The notes under the pieces: model-generated
The model's database searches: none
What the model saw: only the letters and a program-made list of their open reading frames with translations
Told to the model about the DNA's origin: nothing
Made by a program: the position numbers and the translations under genes
Part shown: positions 1,410-32,435 of the stretch, piece by piece
How positions within the stretch are numbered: the stretch's first letter is position 1
Layout: each line of letters starts with the position of its first letter
From: Aerophototrophica crusticola
GTDB taxonomy: Bacteria; Pseudomonadota; Alphaproteobacteria; Azospirillales; Azospirillaceae
DNA length: 64,000 nucleotides
Direction of reading: 5' to 3'
NCBI GenBank assembly: GCA_001939945.1
Contig: MOEB01000001.1
Coordinates: forward strand, 575,595-639,594

Positions 1410-2333
1410 ATGCCGGACCAACCCCTGGCCTACCTGAACGCCCTGCGCGCCTTCGAGGCGGCGGCACGGCACCTGTCCTACGCCCCTGCCGCGGCGGAGT
1501 TGGGGGTGACGCCGGCGGCGGTGGGGCAGCAGGTGCGGGCCCTGGAGGCTTGGCTGGGCGTCAGCCTGTTCCGCCGCAGCCCGGGGCCGCCGGTGCGGCT
1601 GGCCTTGACGGAGGAGGCGCAGGCGGCCTTGCCCGACCTGCGGGAGGGGTTCGACCGGCTGGCGCAGGGCCTGCGCCGGCTGCGGGAGGCGAAGGCGGGC
1701 GGGATCGTCACGGTCACATCCTCACCCGCCTTCGCGGCCAAGTGGCTGCTGGCCCGCATCGACCGGTTCCGGGCGGCGCACCCGCAGTTGGACGTGCGTC
1801 TGGACGCCACCGACCGGCTGGTGGACTTCGCCATGTCCGATGCGGATGTCGGCATCCGATATGGCGGCGGAAGCTGGCCGGGGGTGGAAGCAACGCTGCT
1901 GATGCGGGAGGAGGTGTTCCCGGTTTGCAGCCCGCGGCTGCTGGCCGGGCCGCACCCGCTGGAAAGGCCAGGGGACCTGCGCCACCACACCCTGGTCCAT
2001 GACGCGGCGATCCGCTTCGACGCGGATTTCCCCACATGGCAGAGCTGGCTGGCGGCTGTGGGCGTGCAAGGGGTCGATGCCGGCCGGGGCATCACCATCA
2101 ACTCATCCATCGCCGTGGTGCAGGCGGTCCTGGAGGGGCAGGGCGTGGCGCTGGCCCGTAGCGTGGTGGTTGCCGATGATCTGCGCGCCGGCCGGCTGGT
2201 CCGCCTGTTCCCGGACGTCAGCACCCCATTGCGCTGGGGCTACCATCTGGTGCATCGGCCAGGGGCCGCCACCCCGGGCAAGGTGGCGGCCTTCAAGGGC
2301 TGGATCATCGCCGAGGCGAAGGGGGAAGGTTAA
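1410..2333 (+). CDS. LysR-family transcriptional regulator (GcvA-like)
   Basis: The protein is about 307 residues, typical of LysR regulators. Residues 8-65 form the winged helix-turn-helix (AARHLSYAPAAAELGVTPAA ... LGVSLFRR), with the wording of the GcvA/AmpR-like branch. The rest is a periplasmic-binding-fold effector domain. The start at 1410 follows AGGAAAG; the upstream in-frame ATG at 1377 adds residues that do not look like the family. It is divergent from the oxidoreductase at 227-1249, with 160 bases between, so that gene is the first candidate target. Its stop codon overlaps the stop of the convergent PRC-barrel gene by 3 bases, leaving no room for a terminator between them. The effector is unknown. 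Confidence 0.9.
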   Translation: MPDQPLAYLNALRAFEAAARHLSYAPAAAELGVTPAAVGQQVRALEAWLGVSLFRRSPGPPVRLALTEEAQAALPDLREGFDRLAQGLRRLREAKAGGIVTVTSSPAFAAKWLLARIDRFRAAHPQLDVRLDATDRLVDFAMSDADVGIRYGGGSWPGVEATLLMREEVFPVCSPRLLAGPHPLERPGDLRHHTLVHDAAIRFDADFPTWQSWLAAVGVQGVDAGRGITINSSIAVVQAVLEGQGVALARSVVVADDLRAGRLVRLFPDVSTPLRWGYHLVHRPGAATPGKVAAFKGWIIAEAKGEG

Positions 2334-2902
2334 CGGCCGGAATTGCCTTCCACCGGCTTCGGCCTGTTCTGGCTGCCGGCGGGCGCGGGGGACGCCGGGG
2401 CGGTGGGGATGGGTTCCCCCACGCCGACCATGCCTTCACCCTCGTCGTTGTAGGCCCACTCCTTCAGGTTGGCGAGGTCCTCTGGCGGCATGTTCAGCAC
2501 CACGGCGTTGGCCGAGGGCTGGATGATGACGCGTTGGAAGGGGACCTCCACCGTGCGGTCCTTCAGCCGCTCCAGCCCGTCGATCTCCCCCACCTTGACG
2601 ATCAGGCTGTCCACGGCGCCGGTACGGTTGTCGGTGATGACGTCCACCACCTCCCCCAGCTCCTTGCCGTCGCGGCCCTCCGCGTCGCGGCCGATCAAGG
2701 CGTGGGCCGTGGCCTGGCCCATGCGGCCGGCCGTGGCGCCCTTGCCCTTTTGCGCCTCGATGGGGTTCTGGCCCGCCACCGGGTTGTCGGCGGGCGGCGG
2801 CGGGGCGGGGCGGTTGCCTGACGGGGCGGGGGTCTGGGCCAGGGCGGCGGCGCTGATCACGATGGCGACGGCCGCGGCGGCCAGGGGAAGACGGCGATTC
2901 AT
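2330..2902 (-). CDS. Secreted PRC-barrel domain protein, probably general-stress regulated
   Basis: The 190-residue protein begins with a signal peptide ([20 protein letters not shown]) ending near LAQ, then a Pro-rich linker. The PRC-barrel fold spans about residues 65-135 ([20 protein letters not shown] ... DSLIVKVGE). A Pro-rich tail follows. PRC barrels are small beta barrels found in stress, photosynthetic and ribosome-maturation proteins; the role here is unknown. The start at 2902 has AGGAG about 10 bases upstream, and the long upstream reading frame is a shadow of guaA leader sequence. An exact GGAAC-N16-CGTT promoter lies 35-59 bases upstream, suggesting control by an EcfG-type sigma factor. 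It ends tail-to-tail with the LysR gene, with overlapping stop codons. Confidence 0.85.
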
Positions 2903-2936
2903 GCAGGATGCTCCTTGCGGGTCCATTCGCCGTGGG

Positions 2937-2961
2937 AACGGCGGGAAGGGTCGGTCGTTCC
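2937..2961 (-). promoter_or_regulatory. EcfG-type (general stress) promoter for the PRC-barrel gene
   Basis: On the minus strand the -35 element GGAAC occupies 2961-2957, followed by exactly 16 bases and the -10 element CGTT at 2940-2937. This equals the published alphaproteobacterial EcfG consensus GGAAC-N16/17-CGTT. The start codon is 35 bases downstream of the -10, a normal distance. Confidence 0.72.
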
Positions 2962-15008: not shown

Positions 15009-15248
15009 TCAGTGCATGGTCATGCCGGGATGGGAGGCCACGCCCGGACCGGTGCCCGGCAGGGGCGTCGGGGCCGTGGACAGGCGGTCCTCGCAGGCTT
15101 CCATGACGGCCCGCCAGAAGGCGGCGGCACGGCGGTTGTCGGCGGCGGTCAGCTCCACCAGGCGGTTGCGGCTGACGATGACGGCATCGTCACCCAACTC
15201 CCTCACGAGCAGGACGGCGACGGCCAGGGCATCAAGGTTGTTTGTCAT
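15009..15248 (-). CDS. Small hypothetical protein (79 residues)
   Basis: It begins MTNNLDALAVAVLLVRELGD and has a helical core with RNRLVELTAADNRRAAAFWR, followed by a short Pro/Gly tail. AGGGA precedes the ATG at 15248. No family is recognised. It is divergent from the small gene at 15362, and a shared palindromic EcfG-like promoter site lies between them, so both may belong to the stress response. Confidence 0.6.
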   Translation of the reverse strand: MTNNLDALAVAVLLVRELGDDAVIVSRNRLVELTAADNRRAAAFWRAVMEACEDRLSTAPTPLPGTGPGVASHPGMTMH

Positions 15249-15301
15249 GGGGTCCCTAACGGCCCGGCAGCGGCAACGTTCCCGGATCCTCCCGGCCCTG
15301 C

Positions 15302-15328
15302 GGAACACGGGCGGGCTGCCCCTGTTCC
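15302..15328. promoter_or_regulatory. Overlapping divergent EcfG-like promoters in a palindrome
   Basis: GGAACA (15302-15307) and TGTTCC (15323-15328) are inverted repeats. Read on plus, this gives GGAAC-N16-TGTT aimed at the gene at 15362; read on minus it gives GGAAC-N16-TGTT aimed at the gene starting at 15248. Each -10 lies within the other promoter's -35, so only one polymerase could bind at a time. The -10 differs from CGTT by its first base. Confidence 0.55.
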
Positions 15329-27362: not shown

Positions 27363-27406
27363 AGAGTCTTGCTGTCGGGCTTCCGCTCCGCTCCAGCCCG
27401 ACCTAC
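27319..27406. repeat. REP-like hairpin repeat between convergent genes
   Basis: GTAGGTCGG (27319-27327) pairs with CCGACCTAC (27398-27406). Inside, GTCGGGCT (27374-27381) pairs with AGCCCGAC (27394-27401), and a related half GCCCGACAT lies at 27344-27352. The element covers the end of the TPR-methyltransferase gene and contains the stop codon of the lrgB gene, so it may terminate both transcripts. Confidence 0.7.
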
Positions 27407-28116
27407 AGGAGCCTCACGAACACGGGCACCAGCAGGGCGGTCAGGAAGCCGTTCAGGGCCATGGCGATGCCGGCGAAGGTGCCGGCCAGCTTGTCGATCT
27501 GGAAGGCGGCGGCCGTGCCGATGCCATGGCTGGCGGTACCCAGCGCCGTGCCCTGCGCCTGCGGGTCGGTGATGCGGAGCAGGCGCAGGACCGTGGGGCC
27601 CAGCACGGCGCCCAGGATGCCGGTGCAGATCACCAGGGCCGCGGTCAGGGAAGGGATGCCGCCGATCTGCTCGGCGATGCCCATGGCGATGGGGGAGGTG
27701 ACCGACTTGGGCGCCAAGGAGGCGACCGTCACCGGGTCGGCGCCCAGGGCCAGGGCGATGCCCACCGCGGACAGGATGGAGGTCGCCGCCCCGGCCAGCA
27801 AAGCCGCGGCCAGGGGAAGGGCAGCCTTGCGGAGCTGGGACCGGTAGCGCCAGAGGGGCACGGCCAGGGCCACCGTGGCGGGACCCAGCAGGAAATGCAC
27901 GAACTGGGCCCCCTCGAAATAGGTGCGGTAGGGCGTGCCCGTGGCGACCAGCACGCCGATCAGCAGGGCCATGGCCACCGCCACCGGGTTCACCAGGGCG
28001 AGGCGGCCGGACTTCTCGAACGCCCAGGCCCCGGCCAGGTAGGCCAGCAGCGTTGCTGTCAGCCAGAGCAGGGGGCTTGCGGCCAGGTAGACCCAGAGGC
28101 GCTCCAACTCCGTCAT
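27403..28116 (-). CDS. lrgB: LrgB-family membrane protein
   Basis: The 237-residue protein has about seven hydrophobic segments, with the LrgB signature VASLAPKSVTSPIAMGIAEQ near 135-155 and LGTASHGIGTAAAFQID near 195. LrgB works with LrgA/CidA-type holin-like proteins in murein hydrolase control or in pyruvate and organic acid transport. The ATG overlaps the lrgA stop (ATGA), indicating coupled translation. Its stop codon is embedded in the REP-like hairpin. Confidence 0.92.
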   Translation of the reverse strand: MTELERLWVYLAASPLLWLTATLLAYLAGAWAFEKSGRLALVNPVAVAMALLIGVLVATGTPYRTYFEGAQFVHFLLGPATVALAVPLWRYRSQLRKAALPLAAALLAGAATSILSAVGIALALGADPVTVASLAPKSVTSPIAMGIAEQIGGIPSLTAALVICTGILGAVLGPTVLRLLRITDPQAQGTALGTASHGIGTAAAFQIDKLAGTFAGIAMALNGFLTALLVPVFVRLL

Positions 28117-28466
28117 GGGGCATCCCCCCGGGGCGGCCTGGACAGCAGGCGGAAGACCAGGCCCGTGACCGCCACCGTCAGGACTGTGCTGAACAGCAGG
28201 GCCCCGGCGATGGCCAGCCACTCCCGCCCGATCAGCCCGGCATGCAGCATCACCCCCACCCCGGCGGGGACGAACAGCAGGGACAGGTTGGACAACAGGC
28301 CGTCCGCCGCCCTTTCCAGGCTTTCCCCCGGACCGCCGCGCCAAGCCAGCAGGCCCACCAGGAACAAGGCGCCCAGCACCGGGCCGGGCAGGGGAAGGCC
28401 GAGGCCGCGGGCGGCCAGCTCCCCCGCGAGCTGGGCCAGCAGGATGGTGGCGATGGCGTGGACCAT
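28113..28466 (-). CDS. lrgA: LrgA/CidA holin-like membrane protein
   Basis: The 117-residue protein has four hydrophobic segments with the family features LAGELAARGLGLPLPGPVLG (the P-G-P motif) and LLFVPAGVGVMLHAGLIGRE. It is the partner of LrgB. The gene lies 41 bases after the PhoD-like phosphatase gene on the same strand and probably belongs to the same transcript, which begins with the anti-sigma gene. Confidence 0.9.
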   Translation of the reverse strand: MVHAIATILLAQLAGELAARGLGLPLPGPVLGALFLVGLLAWRGGPGESLERAADGLLSNLSLLFVPAGVGVMLHAGLIGREWLAIAGALLFSTVLTVAVTGLVFRLLSRPPRGDAP

Positions 28467-28507
28467 GGGACCCCCGGGATTGGGGTGGGCTCAAGGGGTG
28501 AACGCGG

Positions 28508-30055
28508 TCAGAGGCCGGGGATGCTCAGCCTCAGGGGTGTCGGCCCGCTCTCCGCGTGCCATTCCGCCTCGATGCCGCCGTCGTTGGTGGCGGTCAGGGA
28601 CAGCCAGTTGCGGGTGCCCAGCAGCTTGCGGCCGGTCTCGGGGAAGCCCGGCATCTCCAGGGTCAGCCCGTCGAACAGTGTCTCCGTCCGGCGGGCGGCG
28701 CGCTCCAGCATGTCCAGGGGGAGGCCGGTGGGGGCGGGGTGGACGATGCCGGAGCTGACGAGTTGCCAAAGCTCCAGGTCCAGGCCGCGGATCACGCCCA
28801 CGGTGCCCAGGTGCACCTCCCCGGACAGGACGGTGATGCGGCAGCGGCTTTCCCGCATGAAGCCGGCCAGCAGGCGCAGCACCCGCTCCCATTCTTCCCG
28901 GTGGGTGGGGCTGCGCCATTGGTCGCGCAGGTCGTCCTCCATGGCCTGGCGGCCCGGGATCCAGTTCAGCAGGCGCTCCACCAGGCTGAAGCTGGGGAAG
29001 ATCATGGGCACGCTGGACATCAGCAACAGGTGCCGGCAGCCGCGGAACCGCTCCAGCCAGCCGGGCAGGGCGTCCAGCGACCGGCTGGACATGACCCGGG
29101 TGGGCCGCCGCTCACTTCGCAGGTCCAGGGCCAGGATGCCCACGCCATTGACGACCAGGCCCTGGGTGAAACTGGGGGGCTCATCCGCCAACAGGGTCTC
29201 CGCCGGGTCGTCCTCCGGCATGCCGATCTGGAACAGGCGGAAGGCGCGGCGGGCGGCGGCGTAGATGGCGCGGTAGAGGGGGCTGTCCAGCACCGGCTCG
29301 GGGTGGGAGCCCCAGCCGTCCAGGATGTCGTGGTCGTCCCACATGCGCAGGCCCGGGACGCTGGCCAGCACGGCCGCCGTCTCCGGCTGGGTCCAGGCGT
29401 GGCGGTAGACCTCCAGGAACCAGCGGTCCAGCGAGGCGTCAAGCCCCGGCGGGGCGTCCAGCGCGGCGCGGCGGGAGAGGGACAGGAGTGCTGCATCCGC
29501 CAGTTCCGGCACGCCCTCCCACAGCCCGTCGGCATAGACCTGGTCACCGCCCGCCAGCAGCAGGTGGTAGGGGCTGGCCCGGTGGCGGCCCAGCAGGTGG
29601 CCCCAGCGGGCGTTGCGGGATAGGCCGGCGGCGGCGATCTGGCTTTCATCCTCGCAGCCGCCACAGGCCGTATAGGCGATGCGGGGTGGGATGGCGGTGC
29701 CGGGCACGTCCAGGTACCAGCGCCGCTCATCCCCGTCGAAGCCATAGGCGCTGCGGCTGTCCTGCAGCCCCCGCGGCACGGCGAAGTCCCAACGCCAGAG
29801 GCGCAGGGGGCCCTTGCCCTTCAGGACCGGGCCGTAATCATGCAGGAAGCGGGGCGGCACCGGCAGGCCGACGCCTTCCACCCGCAAGTCCGGCGGCTCC
29901 CGCTCCCCCGCCAGCAAGGCGGTGGCGGACAGGCGCCAGCGCGGCAGCACCACGCCGCCCGCCTGGGCGCCCCGCGCATGCAGCAGGGGCCCGATGACGA
30001 TGTCGGGCCCCGCCCGGCGCCTGCCGACGCCGCGGATCTTCAGGTCACGTCTCAT
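28508..30055 (-). CDS. Alkaline phosphatase D-like metallophosphatase
   Basis: The 515-residue protein has the PhoD-like core: IAYTACGGCEDES, LLLAGGDQVYADGLWE (metal Asp and His-type ligands), MWDDHDILDGWGSH and LSGEVHLGTVGV near residue 420. No signal peptide or Tat motif is seen, unlike periplasmic PhoD, so it may be cytoplasmic. Such proteins are calcium/iron phosphodiesterases or phosphatases of varied specificity. The start is placed at 30055 (MRRDLKIRG). It follows the anti-sigma gene by 45 bases and precedes lrgA by 41, suggesting one operon. Confidence 0.85.
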   Translation of the reverse strand: MRRDLKIRGVGRRRAGPDIVIGPLLHARGAQAGGVVLPRWRLSATALLAGEREPPDLRVEGVGLPVPPRFLHDYGPVLKGKGPLRLWRWDFAVPRGLQDSRSAYGFDGDERRWYLDVPGTAIPPRIAYTACGGCEDESQIAAAGLSRNARWGHLLGRHRASPYHLLLAGGDQVYADGLWEGVPELADAALLSLSRRAALDAPPGLDASLDRWFLEVYRHAWTQPETAAVLASVPGLRMWDDHDILDGWGSHPEPVLDSPLYRAIYAAARRAFRLFQIGMPEDDPAETLLADEPPSFTQGLVVNGVGILALDLRSERRPTRVMSSRSLDALPGWLERFRGCRHLLLMSSVPMIFPSFSLVERLLNWIPGRQAMEDDLRDQWRSPTHREEWERVLRLLAGFMRESRCRITVLSGEVHLGTVGVIRGLDLELWQLVSSGIVHPAPTGLPLDMLERAARRTETLFDGLTLEMPGFPETGRKLLGTRNWLSLTATNDGGIEAEWHAESGPTPLRLSIPGL

Positions 30056-30100
30056 GGCGGGGACTGTAGCGGGTAATGCCCGGCGGGGGCACCCCGACAC

Positions 30101-30334
30101 TCAGCTCGGCTTGGAAGGGCGGGCGCGCAGCAGGCTCAGCATGCTGTCGGGCACCGGCTCATCCAGGACCTTGTCATAGAGGCGGTGCAGCTCATCCACC
30201 TGTTGGCGGTAGCGGCCCATCAGGGCCTGCGCCTCCGGGTCATGTTCCAGCGCCCGCTCAACCTCCTGGCGCTCGTCATCTCCGAGCGCCCCGTCGAGGT
30301 AGGCGTTGATGTCGTTCATGGTCAGCCGCTTCAT
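30101..30334 (-). CDS. Short soluble anti-sigma factor-like protein
   Basis: The protein of about 77 residues reads MNDINAYLDGALGDDERQEV, then ERALEHDPEAQALMGRYRQQ and VDELHRLYDKVLDEPVPDSM. The first half matches the cytoplasmic sigma-binding domain of RskA/ChrR-like anti-sigma factors (INAYLDG ... HDPEAQ). The LYDKVLDEPVPDSMLSLL part also resembles the conserved core of NepR, the anti-sigma of EcfG. Unlike most relatives it stops here, without the membrane segment and periplasmic sensor. Start choice among ATGs at 30340, 30334 and 30319 is open. An EcfG-like promoter lies upstream, and an ECF sigma gene lies 1.3 kb away. Confidence 0.75.
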   Translation of the reverse strand: MKRLTMNDINAYLDGALGDDERQEVERALEHDPEAQALMGRYRQQVDELHRLYDKVLDEPVPDSMLSLLRARPSKPS

Positions 30335-30408: not shown

Positions 30409-30459
30409 AACATCACCGTCAGGCGGTTGTTCCCGGAACGTGGGTACCCCCGACCTGTT
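30409..30459. promoter_or_regulatory. Back-to-back EcfG-like promoters (anti-sigma gene / short-chain dehydrogenase)
   Basis: On minus, GGAAC (30433-30429), 16 bases and TGTT (30412-30409) point at the anti-sigma gene. On plus, GGAAC (30435-30439), 16 bases and TGTT (30456-30459) point at the dehydrogenase at 30500. The two -35 boxes abut as GTTCCCGGAAC. Both -10 elements deviate from CGTT in the first base only. Confidence 0.6.
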
Positions 30460-30499: not shown

Positions 30500-31363
30500 A
30501 TGGCATCGGACGGGAAGCAGGGGCAGCCGCCGCAGCACCAGGAGACACAGCCGGGACGGGAAGACCAGATGGACCCGAAGCCCGTGGTGATCCGTGAGGA
30601 CTACCGGGGCAGCGGCAAGCTGGAGGGCAAGGTGGCCCTGGTCACCGGCGGGGACAGCGGCATCGGCCGGGCCGTGGCCGTGCACTTCGCCCGCGAGGGG
30701 GCCGACGTCTGCATCGGCTACCTGGACGAGGATCAGGACGCGGAGGAGACCCGCCGCATGGTGGAGGCGGAGGGCCGGCGCTGCCAGACCTTCCGCGGCG
30801 ACATCGGCTATGAGGAGCGCTGCCGGGAGCTGGTGGCCATGGTCATCGACAAGTTCGGCAGGCTGGACATCCTGGTGAACAACGCCGCCGAGCAGCACCC
30901 CCAGGACAGCCTGGAGAAGATCAGCGCGGAGCAGCTGGAGCGCACCTTCCGCACCAACATCTTCGCCCAGTTCTACCTGACCAAGGCCGCCCTGCCGCAC
31001 CTGAAGAAGGACGCGGCCATCATCAACACCACCTCCATCACCGCCTACCGCGGCAACCCGCAGCTGATCGACTATTCCTCCACCAAGGGTGCGATCGTGG
31101 CCTTCACCCGCTCCCTCGCGTCTGCCCTGGCGGAGAAGGGCATCCGGGTGAACGGAGTGGCGCCCGGGCCCATCTGGACCCCACTGATCCCTTCCACCTT
31201 CAGCGCCGAGAAGACGGCCAAGTTCGGAACCAACGAGCCGCTGGGCCGCGCCGGCCAGCCGGCGGACGTGGCCCCGGCCTTCGTCTTCCTGGCCAGCGCG
31301 GACGCAGCCTACATGACCGGCCAGGTGCTGCACCCGAACGGGGGCGAGGTGGTGAACGGGTAG
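30500..31363 (+). CDS. Short-chain dehydrogenase/reductase (stress-type, YghA/YdaD-like)
   Basis: The 287-residue protein has a hydrophilic Gln/Pro-rich start, then the NAD(P)-binding TGGDSGIGRA motif (about 55), NNAAEQHPQD and the catalytic Ser/Tyr/Lys set in IINTTSITAY and IDYSSTKGAI. It ends with TGQVLHPNGGEVVNG, typical of the glucose/ribitol dehydrogenase-like subgroup including YghA and general stress protein 39. Substrate unknown. GGGGAAG precedes the ATG. A GGAAC-N16-TGTT site ends 41 bases upstream; genes of this subgroup are recurrent members of EcfG regulons. Confidence 0.92.
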   Translation: MASDGKQGQPPQHQETQPGREDQMDPKPVVIREDYRGSGKLEGKVALVTGGDSGIGRAVAVHFAREGADVCIGYLDEDQDAEETRRMVEAEGRRCQTFRGDIGYEERCRELVAMVIDKFGRLDILVNNAAEQHPQDSLEKISAEQLERTFRTNIFAQFYLTKAALPHLKKDAAIINTTSITAYRGNPQLIDYSSTKGAIVAFTRSLASALAEKGIRVNGVAPGPIWTPLIPSTFSAEKTAKFGTNEPLGRAGQPADVAPAFVFLASADAAYMTGQVLHPNGGEVVNG

Positions 31364-31622: not shown

Positions 31623-32111
31623 TTACGCCGCCATCATGTTGTTCAGGCGCTCACGGGCGCGGCAGAGGCGGGAGCGGATGGTGCCGATGGAGACGTTCAG
31701 GCGCTCCGCGGCTTCCTGGTAGGGGCGGCCCTCGATGGCGACCAGCTTTACCACCTTGCGCTGGCAGGGGGTCAGGGACTTGAAGGCGCGGTCCACGTCA
31801 CGGCACAGCAGGCGAGACATCTGGGTCGCCTCCACCGAGGCGGCGTGGTCCCACAGCTCCACCTTGGTCATGTGCTTGTCGCGCTGCAGGTTGTTGAAGT
31901 GCAGGTTCTTCAGCATCGTGGTCAGCCAGGCCTGCATGTTGGTGCCCGGCTCGAAGCGGTGGGAGCGGGAAAGCGCCCGTGCGATGCAGTCCTGGGTCAG
32001 GTCCTCCGCCGCCGCGGCGTCCCGGGTCAGCTTGCAGGCGTAACGGTGCAGGGCGGGGATGCAGCCGATCAGCTCGTCGGTGAAGGAGTAGGCCATCGGT
32101 GTGGGCTCCAT
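31623..32111 (-). CDS. ECF RNA polymerase sigma factor (candidate EcfG-like)
   Basis: The protein is about 162 residues, containing sigma region 2 (about 15-80; LTQDCIARALSRSHRFEPGT, MQAWLTTMLKNLHFNNLQRD) and region 4 (about 105-160; LTPCQRKVVKLVAIEGRPYQ, EAAERLNVSIGTIRSRLCRA). The FEPGTNM.AWL..ML.N wording is like EcfG general-stress sigma factors, but canonical phyR and nepR neighbours are absent. An exact GGAAC-N16-CGTT promoter lies about 300 bases upstream on the same strand, which would make it autoregulated. The start is 32111 or the ATG at 32096, which has GGAG at 9 bases. Confidence 0.9.
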   Translation of the reverse strand: MEPTPMAYSFTDELIGCIPALHRYACKLTRDAAAAEDLTQDCIARALSRSHRFEPGTNMQAWLTTMLKNLHFNNLQRDKHMTKVELWDHAASVEATQMSRLLCRDVDRAFKSLTPCQRKVVKLVAIEGRPYQEAAERLNVSIGTIRSRLCRARERLNNMMAA

Positions 32112-32410: not shown

Positions 32411-32435
32411 AACGTGGGGTCTTGGGTGTTGTTCC
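32411..32435 (-). promoter_or_regulatory. EcfG-type promoter upstream of the ECF sigma gene
   Basis: On minus, GGAAC (32435-32431), 16 bases, CGTT (32414-32411): exact consensus. The transcript would have a leader of about 290 bases before the sigma start codon, unusually long, so a second promoter nearer the gene is possible. Confidence 0.68.

Follow-up and report, generated by a model that had tools for sequence, protein, structure and literature searches.

Organization of the ASD77 locus

The window, that is, the whole stretch of Aerophototrophica crusticola DNA that was analysed (64,000 nucleotides), carries on its minus strand a reading frame with an ATG start (30101-30334) whose 77-residue product, here named ASD77, begins MKRLTMNDINAYLDG and reads in full MKRLTMNDINAYLDGALGDDERQEVERALEHDPEAQALMGRYRQQVDELHRLYDKVLDEPVPDSMLSLLRARPSKPS. 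Beyond it come a divergent SDR gene, a convergent ECF sigma factor gene and then glgP. The features considered here are the following:

27403-28116, minus strand: lrgB, which shares 4 bp with the end of lrgA
28113-28466, minus strand: lrgA, whose linkage was seen in the window's genome only, among the loci examined
28508-30055, minus strand: PhoD_2-type phosphatase gene, a conserved neighbour that follows ASD77 after 45 bp
30101-30334, minus strand: ASD77 gene, encoding a soluble class-I-type anti-sigma factor of 77 aa with a NepR-like C-terminal core
30125-30190, minus strand: NepR-like core (residues 49-70), above the Pfam NepR cut-off
30191-30319, minus strand: class-I anti-sigma helices 1-3 (residues 6-48, INAYLDG...)
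30433-30409, minus strand: ASD77 promoter GGAAC-N17-GTT, GGAACAACCGCCTGACGGTGATGTT, 99 bp upstream of the gene, kept in 42/42 distinct upstream regions
30435-30459, plus strand: divergent SDR promoter GGAAC-N17-GTT, conserved in 22/22 SDR upstream regions
30500-31363, plus strand: SDR oxidoreductase gene (PRK06701 subfamily), divergent from ASD77, a likely target
31623-32096, minus strand: gene of ECF sigma factor P0002, the probable partner of ASD77
32411-32435, minus strand: GGAACAA-N-CGTT site of the ECF gene, 339 bp upstream

The original prediction placed ASD77 45 bases from a PhoD-like phosphatase gene followed by lrgA and lrgB on one strand, and the coordinates agree, although the interval that it gave for this arrangement (28113-30334) takes in the phosphatase gene and lrgA and omits lrgB. 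The linkage is present here, but lrgAB was not seen behind the phosphatase gene in the other loci examined; it therefore looks local, and lrgAB is not to be counted in the conserved module. The neighbours of ASD77 that are conserved are the ECF, SDR and PhoD-like genes. ASD77 orthologues, which lack annotation in the plasmid records checked, are strongly conserved in both the N-terminal motif and the NepR-like core. None of the aligned orthologues, the 77-residue protein of the window included, contains a cysteine, and zinc or redox sensing by ASD77 was rejected on this ground.

Sequence and predicted fold of ASD77

The class-I anti-sigma domain consists of a three-helix bundle, a flexible linker and a fourth helix, of which helix 4 contacts sigma2 and helices 1-3 contact sigma4 (PMC7406223). 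NepR and CnrY belong to class II and wrap around the sigma factor (PMC8103513; PMC4598750), and the two classes have been reported to be without sequence similarity (PMC4598750, PMC7406223).

AlphaFold2, run with four sequences, predicts helices at residues 6-13, 19-31, 33-57 and 63-71 of ASD77 (pLDDT 85), so that the model shows the three-helix bundle, linker and fourth helix by which class I is defined. Nothing lies beyond these four helices, as expected from the earlier claim that the protein has no membrane segment. Foldseek with the 77-residue model returned no match with a significant E-value; upon realignment of the model, RsiW, MucA, RslA, RseA and ChrR rank first, with RsiW (5wuq_C) reaching the best Z of 6.4, a modest value for a helical bundle, at an rmsd of 4.1 over 69 aligned residues. 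NepR is absent from the structural match list, which is uninformative for so short a two-helix chain.

Profile searches place the two halves of the protein differently. Pfam NepR (PF18557) matches residues 49-70 with 29.6 bits (cut-off 25.7), and zf-HC2 matches residues 9-31 with 25.5 bits (cut-off 22.2). Between the NepR and RskA_N profiles, whose comparison had been suggested, it is NepR that scores higher, as RskA_N (PF22618) stays at 16.8 bits, below its gathering cut-off of 27 bits. The NCBIfam equivalog antisigmaTNepR, which needs 100 bits, gives 25.1. By hhalign, residues 1-72 align with membrane class-I anti-sigmas (99.5%, E 1e-22; purpose-built sets) and residues 46-74 with NepRs of other families (96.9%, E 1.6e-10); the same 27 columns align when NepR is compared with class I itself (90.3%), a somewhat biased comparison because the class-I set was picked by similarity to ASD77. 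A profile built from 13 NepRs of other families scores ASD77 orthologues at 23-40 bits (median 34) and membrane class-I anti-sigmas at a median of 13 bits. When the PDB was searched with an ASD77 profile, NepR came out on top (3t0y_B, E 9e-5; 2lfw_B, 0.008), followed by RslA, which matches the N-terminal half.

It had been proposed that an RskA-type start is fused to a NepR-like segment. Both parts are recovered, as an N-terminal half of class-I type and a core resembling NepR, but not their fusion: given the full-length class-I alignment, the protein is better read as a complete class-I anti-sigma domain in which the end of helix 3 and helix 4 are NepR-like. A plain NepR was considered and rejected, given the class-I helices and the missed NCBIfam cut-off. 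As judged from its sequence, ASD77 is a link between class-I and class-II anti-sigma factors.

The comparison with known factors can be drawn out further. Like NepR, ASD77 is soluble, has a length in the range of about 60-80 aa and carries the core L..(L/M)YD.V..EP(V/I)P..(M/F)L.LL; it also occurs with PhyR, an EcfG-type promoter and a nearby ECF gene, the setting of a general stress module. Unlike NepR, which has a short disordered stretch there, it possesses additional ordered helices of class-I type at the N-terminus, whereas class-II factors have the two core helices only; the exception here is the gene of one genome (G025, below). Like RsiW, MucA, RslA, RseA and ChrR, it can be aligned over its full length with class I, with helices 1-3, linker and helix 4; it differs from them in having no membrane helix, zinc ligands or C-terminal sensor, in its far more NepR-like tail and in being tied to PhyR by occurrence. 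The H-x3-C-x2-C ligands required of a ZASD (zinc-binding class I) are lacking.

The Pfam NepR model is unspecific, its sole further match in the genome being to a membrane anti-sigma, whose cytoplasmic tail exceeds the cut-off. This short protein is encoded with an ECF at G000:C285:4910-5735 (L024), and proteins of its type probably give rise to wrong NepR annotations; we caution that the model tags some ordinary membrane anti-sigmas as NepR. G003 and G025 have an ECF related to this one with no such anti-sigma alongside.

Conservation of the promoter motif

For EcfG promoters, PMC3892343 gives the consensus GGAAC-N16-CGTT (R. etli) and PMC4814048 gives GAAC-N16,17-C/GGTT (M. extorquens). The earlier claim that ASD77 has an EcfG-like motif in its own promoter is borne out: GGAAC-N15-18-GTT is found in all 42 distinct ASD77 upstream regions as compared with 0.8 expected, which argues against chance. 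The motif is mostly GGAACA with a TGTT -10 element, and the ASD77 and SDR sites correspond to the consensus GGAAC-N16-CGTT except that T replaces C in the -10. An EcfG-type promoter on its own gene makes negative feedback by ASD77 probable, as had been suggested. Loci without an adjacent SDR gene generally lack the motif on the opposite strand. In the window's genome the ECF gene is preceded by such a site, GGAACAA...CGTT, as it is in 9/21 cases within 350 bp, and its autoregulation is probable.

The same motif was not found within 350 bp upstream of phyR at any of 30 loci, which sets these genes apart from canonical loci, and the idea that phyR belongs to the same regulon by this motif was dropped. 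Likewise, bare GGAAC-N16/17-YGTT shows no excess genome-wide (114 versus 112 in a reversed control); its count was therefore abandoned as evidence, and we used only conservation at orthologous genes.

Elsewhere in the window, a PRC-barrel gene (2330-2961, minus strand, likely start near 2905) is a candidate stress-regulon gene with overlapping divergent sites of the GGAAC-N16-CGTT type just upstream (2935, plus; 2961, minus), and three GGAAC...YGTT sites cluster at 15282-15328, close to a short unnamed ORF (15009-15308, minus strand).

Joint occurrence of ASD77 and PhyR

PhyR is the antagonist of NepR. The original prediction reported no visible phyR, which holds for the window but not for the genome, where an orphan phyR is located on another contig (G000:C131:58661-59488). 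Its 276-aa product has sigma-like and receiver domains; it is one of six places found by a PF22029 search of the genome, exceeds the cut-offs of both PF22029 and PF00072, and groups with PhyRs, separated from ECFs by a 100/98 branch. Neither nepR nor ecfG was found beside it. In the usual arrangement nepR-ecfG is divergent from phyR at a single locus, and no such standard phyR-nepR-ecfG locus was found in the genome; here phyR and ASD77 are on different contigs.

We examined the distribution of both genes in 82 Azospirillaceae genomes, calling full-length ASD77 at E at most 1e-17; the weaker matches, from E 1e-15 on, seem to be longer frames that encode class-I factors. Full-length ASD77 is present in 57 of the 82 genomes and PhyR in 58, namely the same 57 and G025. 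The two genes are far apart (phyR at 902 kb and ASD77 at 3570 kb on G076:C1), so a single deletion cannot explain their joint changes. In a tree of ribosomal proteins from 27 of the genomes, at least four joint state changes fall on the starred branches, with PhyR and ASD77 always changing together; four independent joint changes are few, and a sign test (p 0.125) falls short of significance.

A canonical NepR was not found with the Pfam NepR model in the PhyR-bearing Azospirillaceae genomes, where the best match is usually ASD77 and all matches are either ASD77 or the tails of membrane class-I factors. The model is positive in Caulobacter and in the Azospirillaceae genus g11, which has its own NepR-like small genes and in which the threshold used yields no PhyR. 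In this genus (G069, G074) a PhyR-like gene has as neighbours a small gene for a NepR-like protein and a divergent ECF gene (L063 1889-2680, minus strand; L064 1853-2431, minus strand; L223). The PhyR-like protein has a sigma-like domain and only a receiver stub (in L063 Pfam finds no receiver), and may be a PhyR that has become independent of phosphorylation.

G025, the one genome with PhyR and no full-length ASD77, has at the ASD77 locus, in the same synteny, a gene whose product ends in HVAALHRMYDPILNEPIPDRMLTLLRRYTR and shares the NepR core only, its N-terminal half having no relation to ASD77. A frameshift was rejected as the explanation of this N-terminus, as the other frames contain no INAYLDG-like stretch. 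Here (G025:C1:2882207-2882302; L070, about 1350-1578) the class-I N-terminal half has been lost and the NepR core kept, making the gene a natural test of which part of ASD77 is needed.

The probable sigma factor partner

The pairing of ASD77 with the ECF at 31623-32096 gains support, since this gene is syntenic across Azospirillaceae, and the ECF is the predicted partner. Of the 82 genomes, only PhyR genomes contain a P0002-type ECF, 55 of the 58 in all; in 53 of the 55 the gene is less than 5 kb from the ASD77-type gene, the other two being cases of different contigs in broken assemblies. The best PDB match of the ECF is the sigma chain of a complex with NepR (5uxx_A), and the ECF shares the promoter type of EcfG (ECF15). 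However, two trees separate the nepR-adjacent EcfGs (clade support 98/94 and 99/93) from the ASD77-linked ECFs (99/95 and 100/97), whose clade, together with two other ECFs of the window's genome, is sister to the EcfG clade. The neighbouring ECF is thus no plain EcfG. The Azospirillaceae PhyRs also form a clade of their own (99/97), on the PhyR side of the 100/98 branch. As the ECFs and the PhyRs each have their own clade, the whole trio appears, on these trees, to be a parallel lineage.

In three Niveispirillum-like genomes (G003, G006, G010), PhyR, ASD77 and the promoter motif are kept and the P0002-type ECF is absent; the target of ASD77 there must therefore be another ECF. Among their ECFs the nearest is 45% identical, and in G003, where the neighbourhood was examined, no class-I gene was found beside it.

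A proposed diverged PhyR partner switch

We suggest, with a probability of roughly 70%, that ASD77 is the anti-sigma factor of the general stress response of Azospirillaceae, standing in for NepR in a PhyR partner switch that has diverged. What is observed is the sequence and class of fold, the synteny, the conserved promoters, and the way in which ASD77 and PhyR are present or lost together; from these we infer ECF binding, PhyR binding, control by phosphorylation and the regulon, with the steps of the mechanism modelled by analogy on the NepR/CnrY and class-I literature. In unstressed cells, ASD77 would hold the ECF sigma encoded nearby. Under stress, phosphorylated PhyR would expose its sigma-like domain and take ASD77 away, gripping it mainly via the C-terminal L..LYD.V..EPVP..ML.LL hairpin, which NepR also uses. 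The freed sigma might then transcribe from GGAAC-N16/17-YGTT promoters the SDR gene, the ASD77 and PhoD-like genes (as negative feedback) and probably its own gene. It had been speculated that the locus encodes a partner switch of a different design. The anti-sigma is indeed unusual, but since the genome does contain phyR, with which ASD77 goes together across the 82 genomes, a PhyR switch is most likely, and one with a class-I domain in NepR's place and feedback through its own promoter is the most economical reading.

Of the alternatives, the one that survives best, unlikely as we consider it, is that ASD77 is a soluble class-I anti-sigma of the neighbouring ECF, released by a cytoplasmic signal or proteolysis with no direct contact to PhyR, so that its NepR-like tail would be the common end of class-I domains and the joint loss a general loss of stress function. 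Homology to class I over the full length (hhalign 99.5%) would fit such a factor, as would the Pfam NepR match to a membrane class-I anti-sigma, but the NepR-profile score of ASD77 lies far above those of other class-I domains, and the G025 gene lost the class-I half while retaining the NepR core. Solubility is common among class-I factors (about 35%; PMC7406223) and ASD77 is closely linked to an ECF gene, yet three genomes retain ASD77 and PhyR without the P0002-type ECF. Moreover, every genome with ASD77 has PhyR, both were lost together each time though unlinked, and no other NepR was found for this PhyR. That ASD77 has only an auxiliary role in this response, as one more anti-sigma or as a feedback inhibitor, beside a canonical NepR too divergent to be detected, seems highly improbable: NepR is short and poorly conserved, paralogues are known, with several in Methylobacterium (PMC4814048), and a feedback inhibitor would be expected to have an EcfG-type promoter of its own, but the Pfam model that detects NepR in Caulobacter and g11 yields only ASD77 or membrane class-I anti-sigmas in the PhyR-bearing Azospirillaceae, and the surroundings of phyR in the window's genome showed no small gene of NepR type.

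Possible implications for the origin of NepR

If ASD77 acts in a PhyR switch as proposed, it might also bear on where NepR came from. We tentatively speculate, at somewhat less than even odds, that NepR (class II) arose from a class-I domain that lost its membrane part and then helices 1 and 2, keeping the end of helix 3 and helix 4, and that ASD77 is a living intermediate. Azospirillaceae would then have retained the earlier form, with the G025 gene repeating the last step. If true, both anti-sigma classes would be homologous, and the origin of the alphaproteobacterial stress switch would be explained.

Azospirillaceae are plant-associated nitrogen fixers. In the openly licensed literature, we found no paper that resolves the presence of PhyR without a recognisable NepR in Azospirillaceae or that describes such an anti-sigma for Azospirillum. 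ASD77 would fill this NepR gap, indicate the sigma factor and the promoters, and open the system to tests in A. brasilense Sp7.
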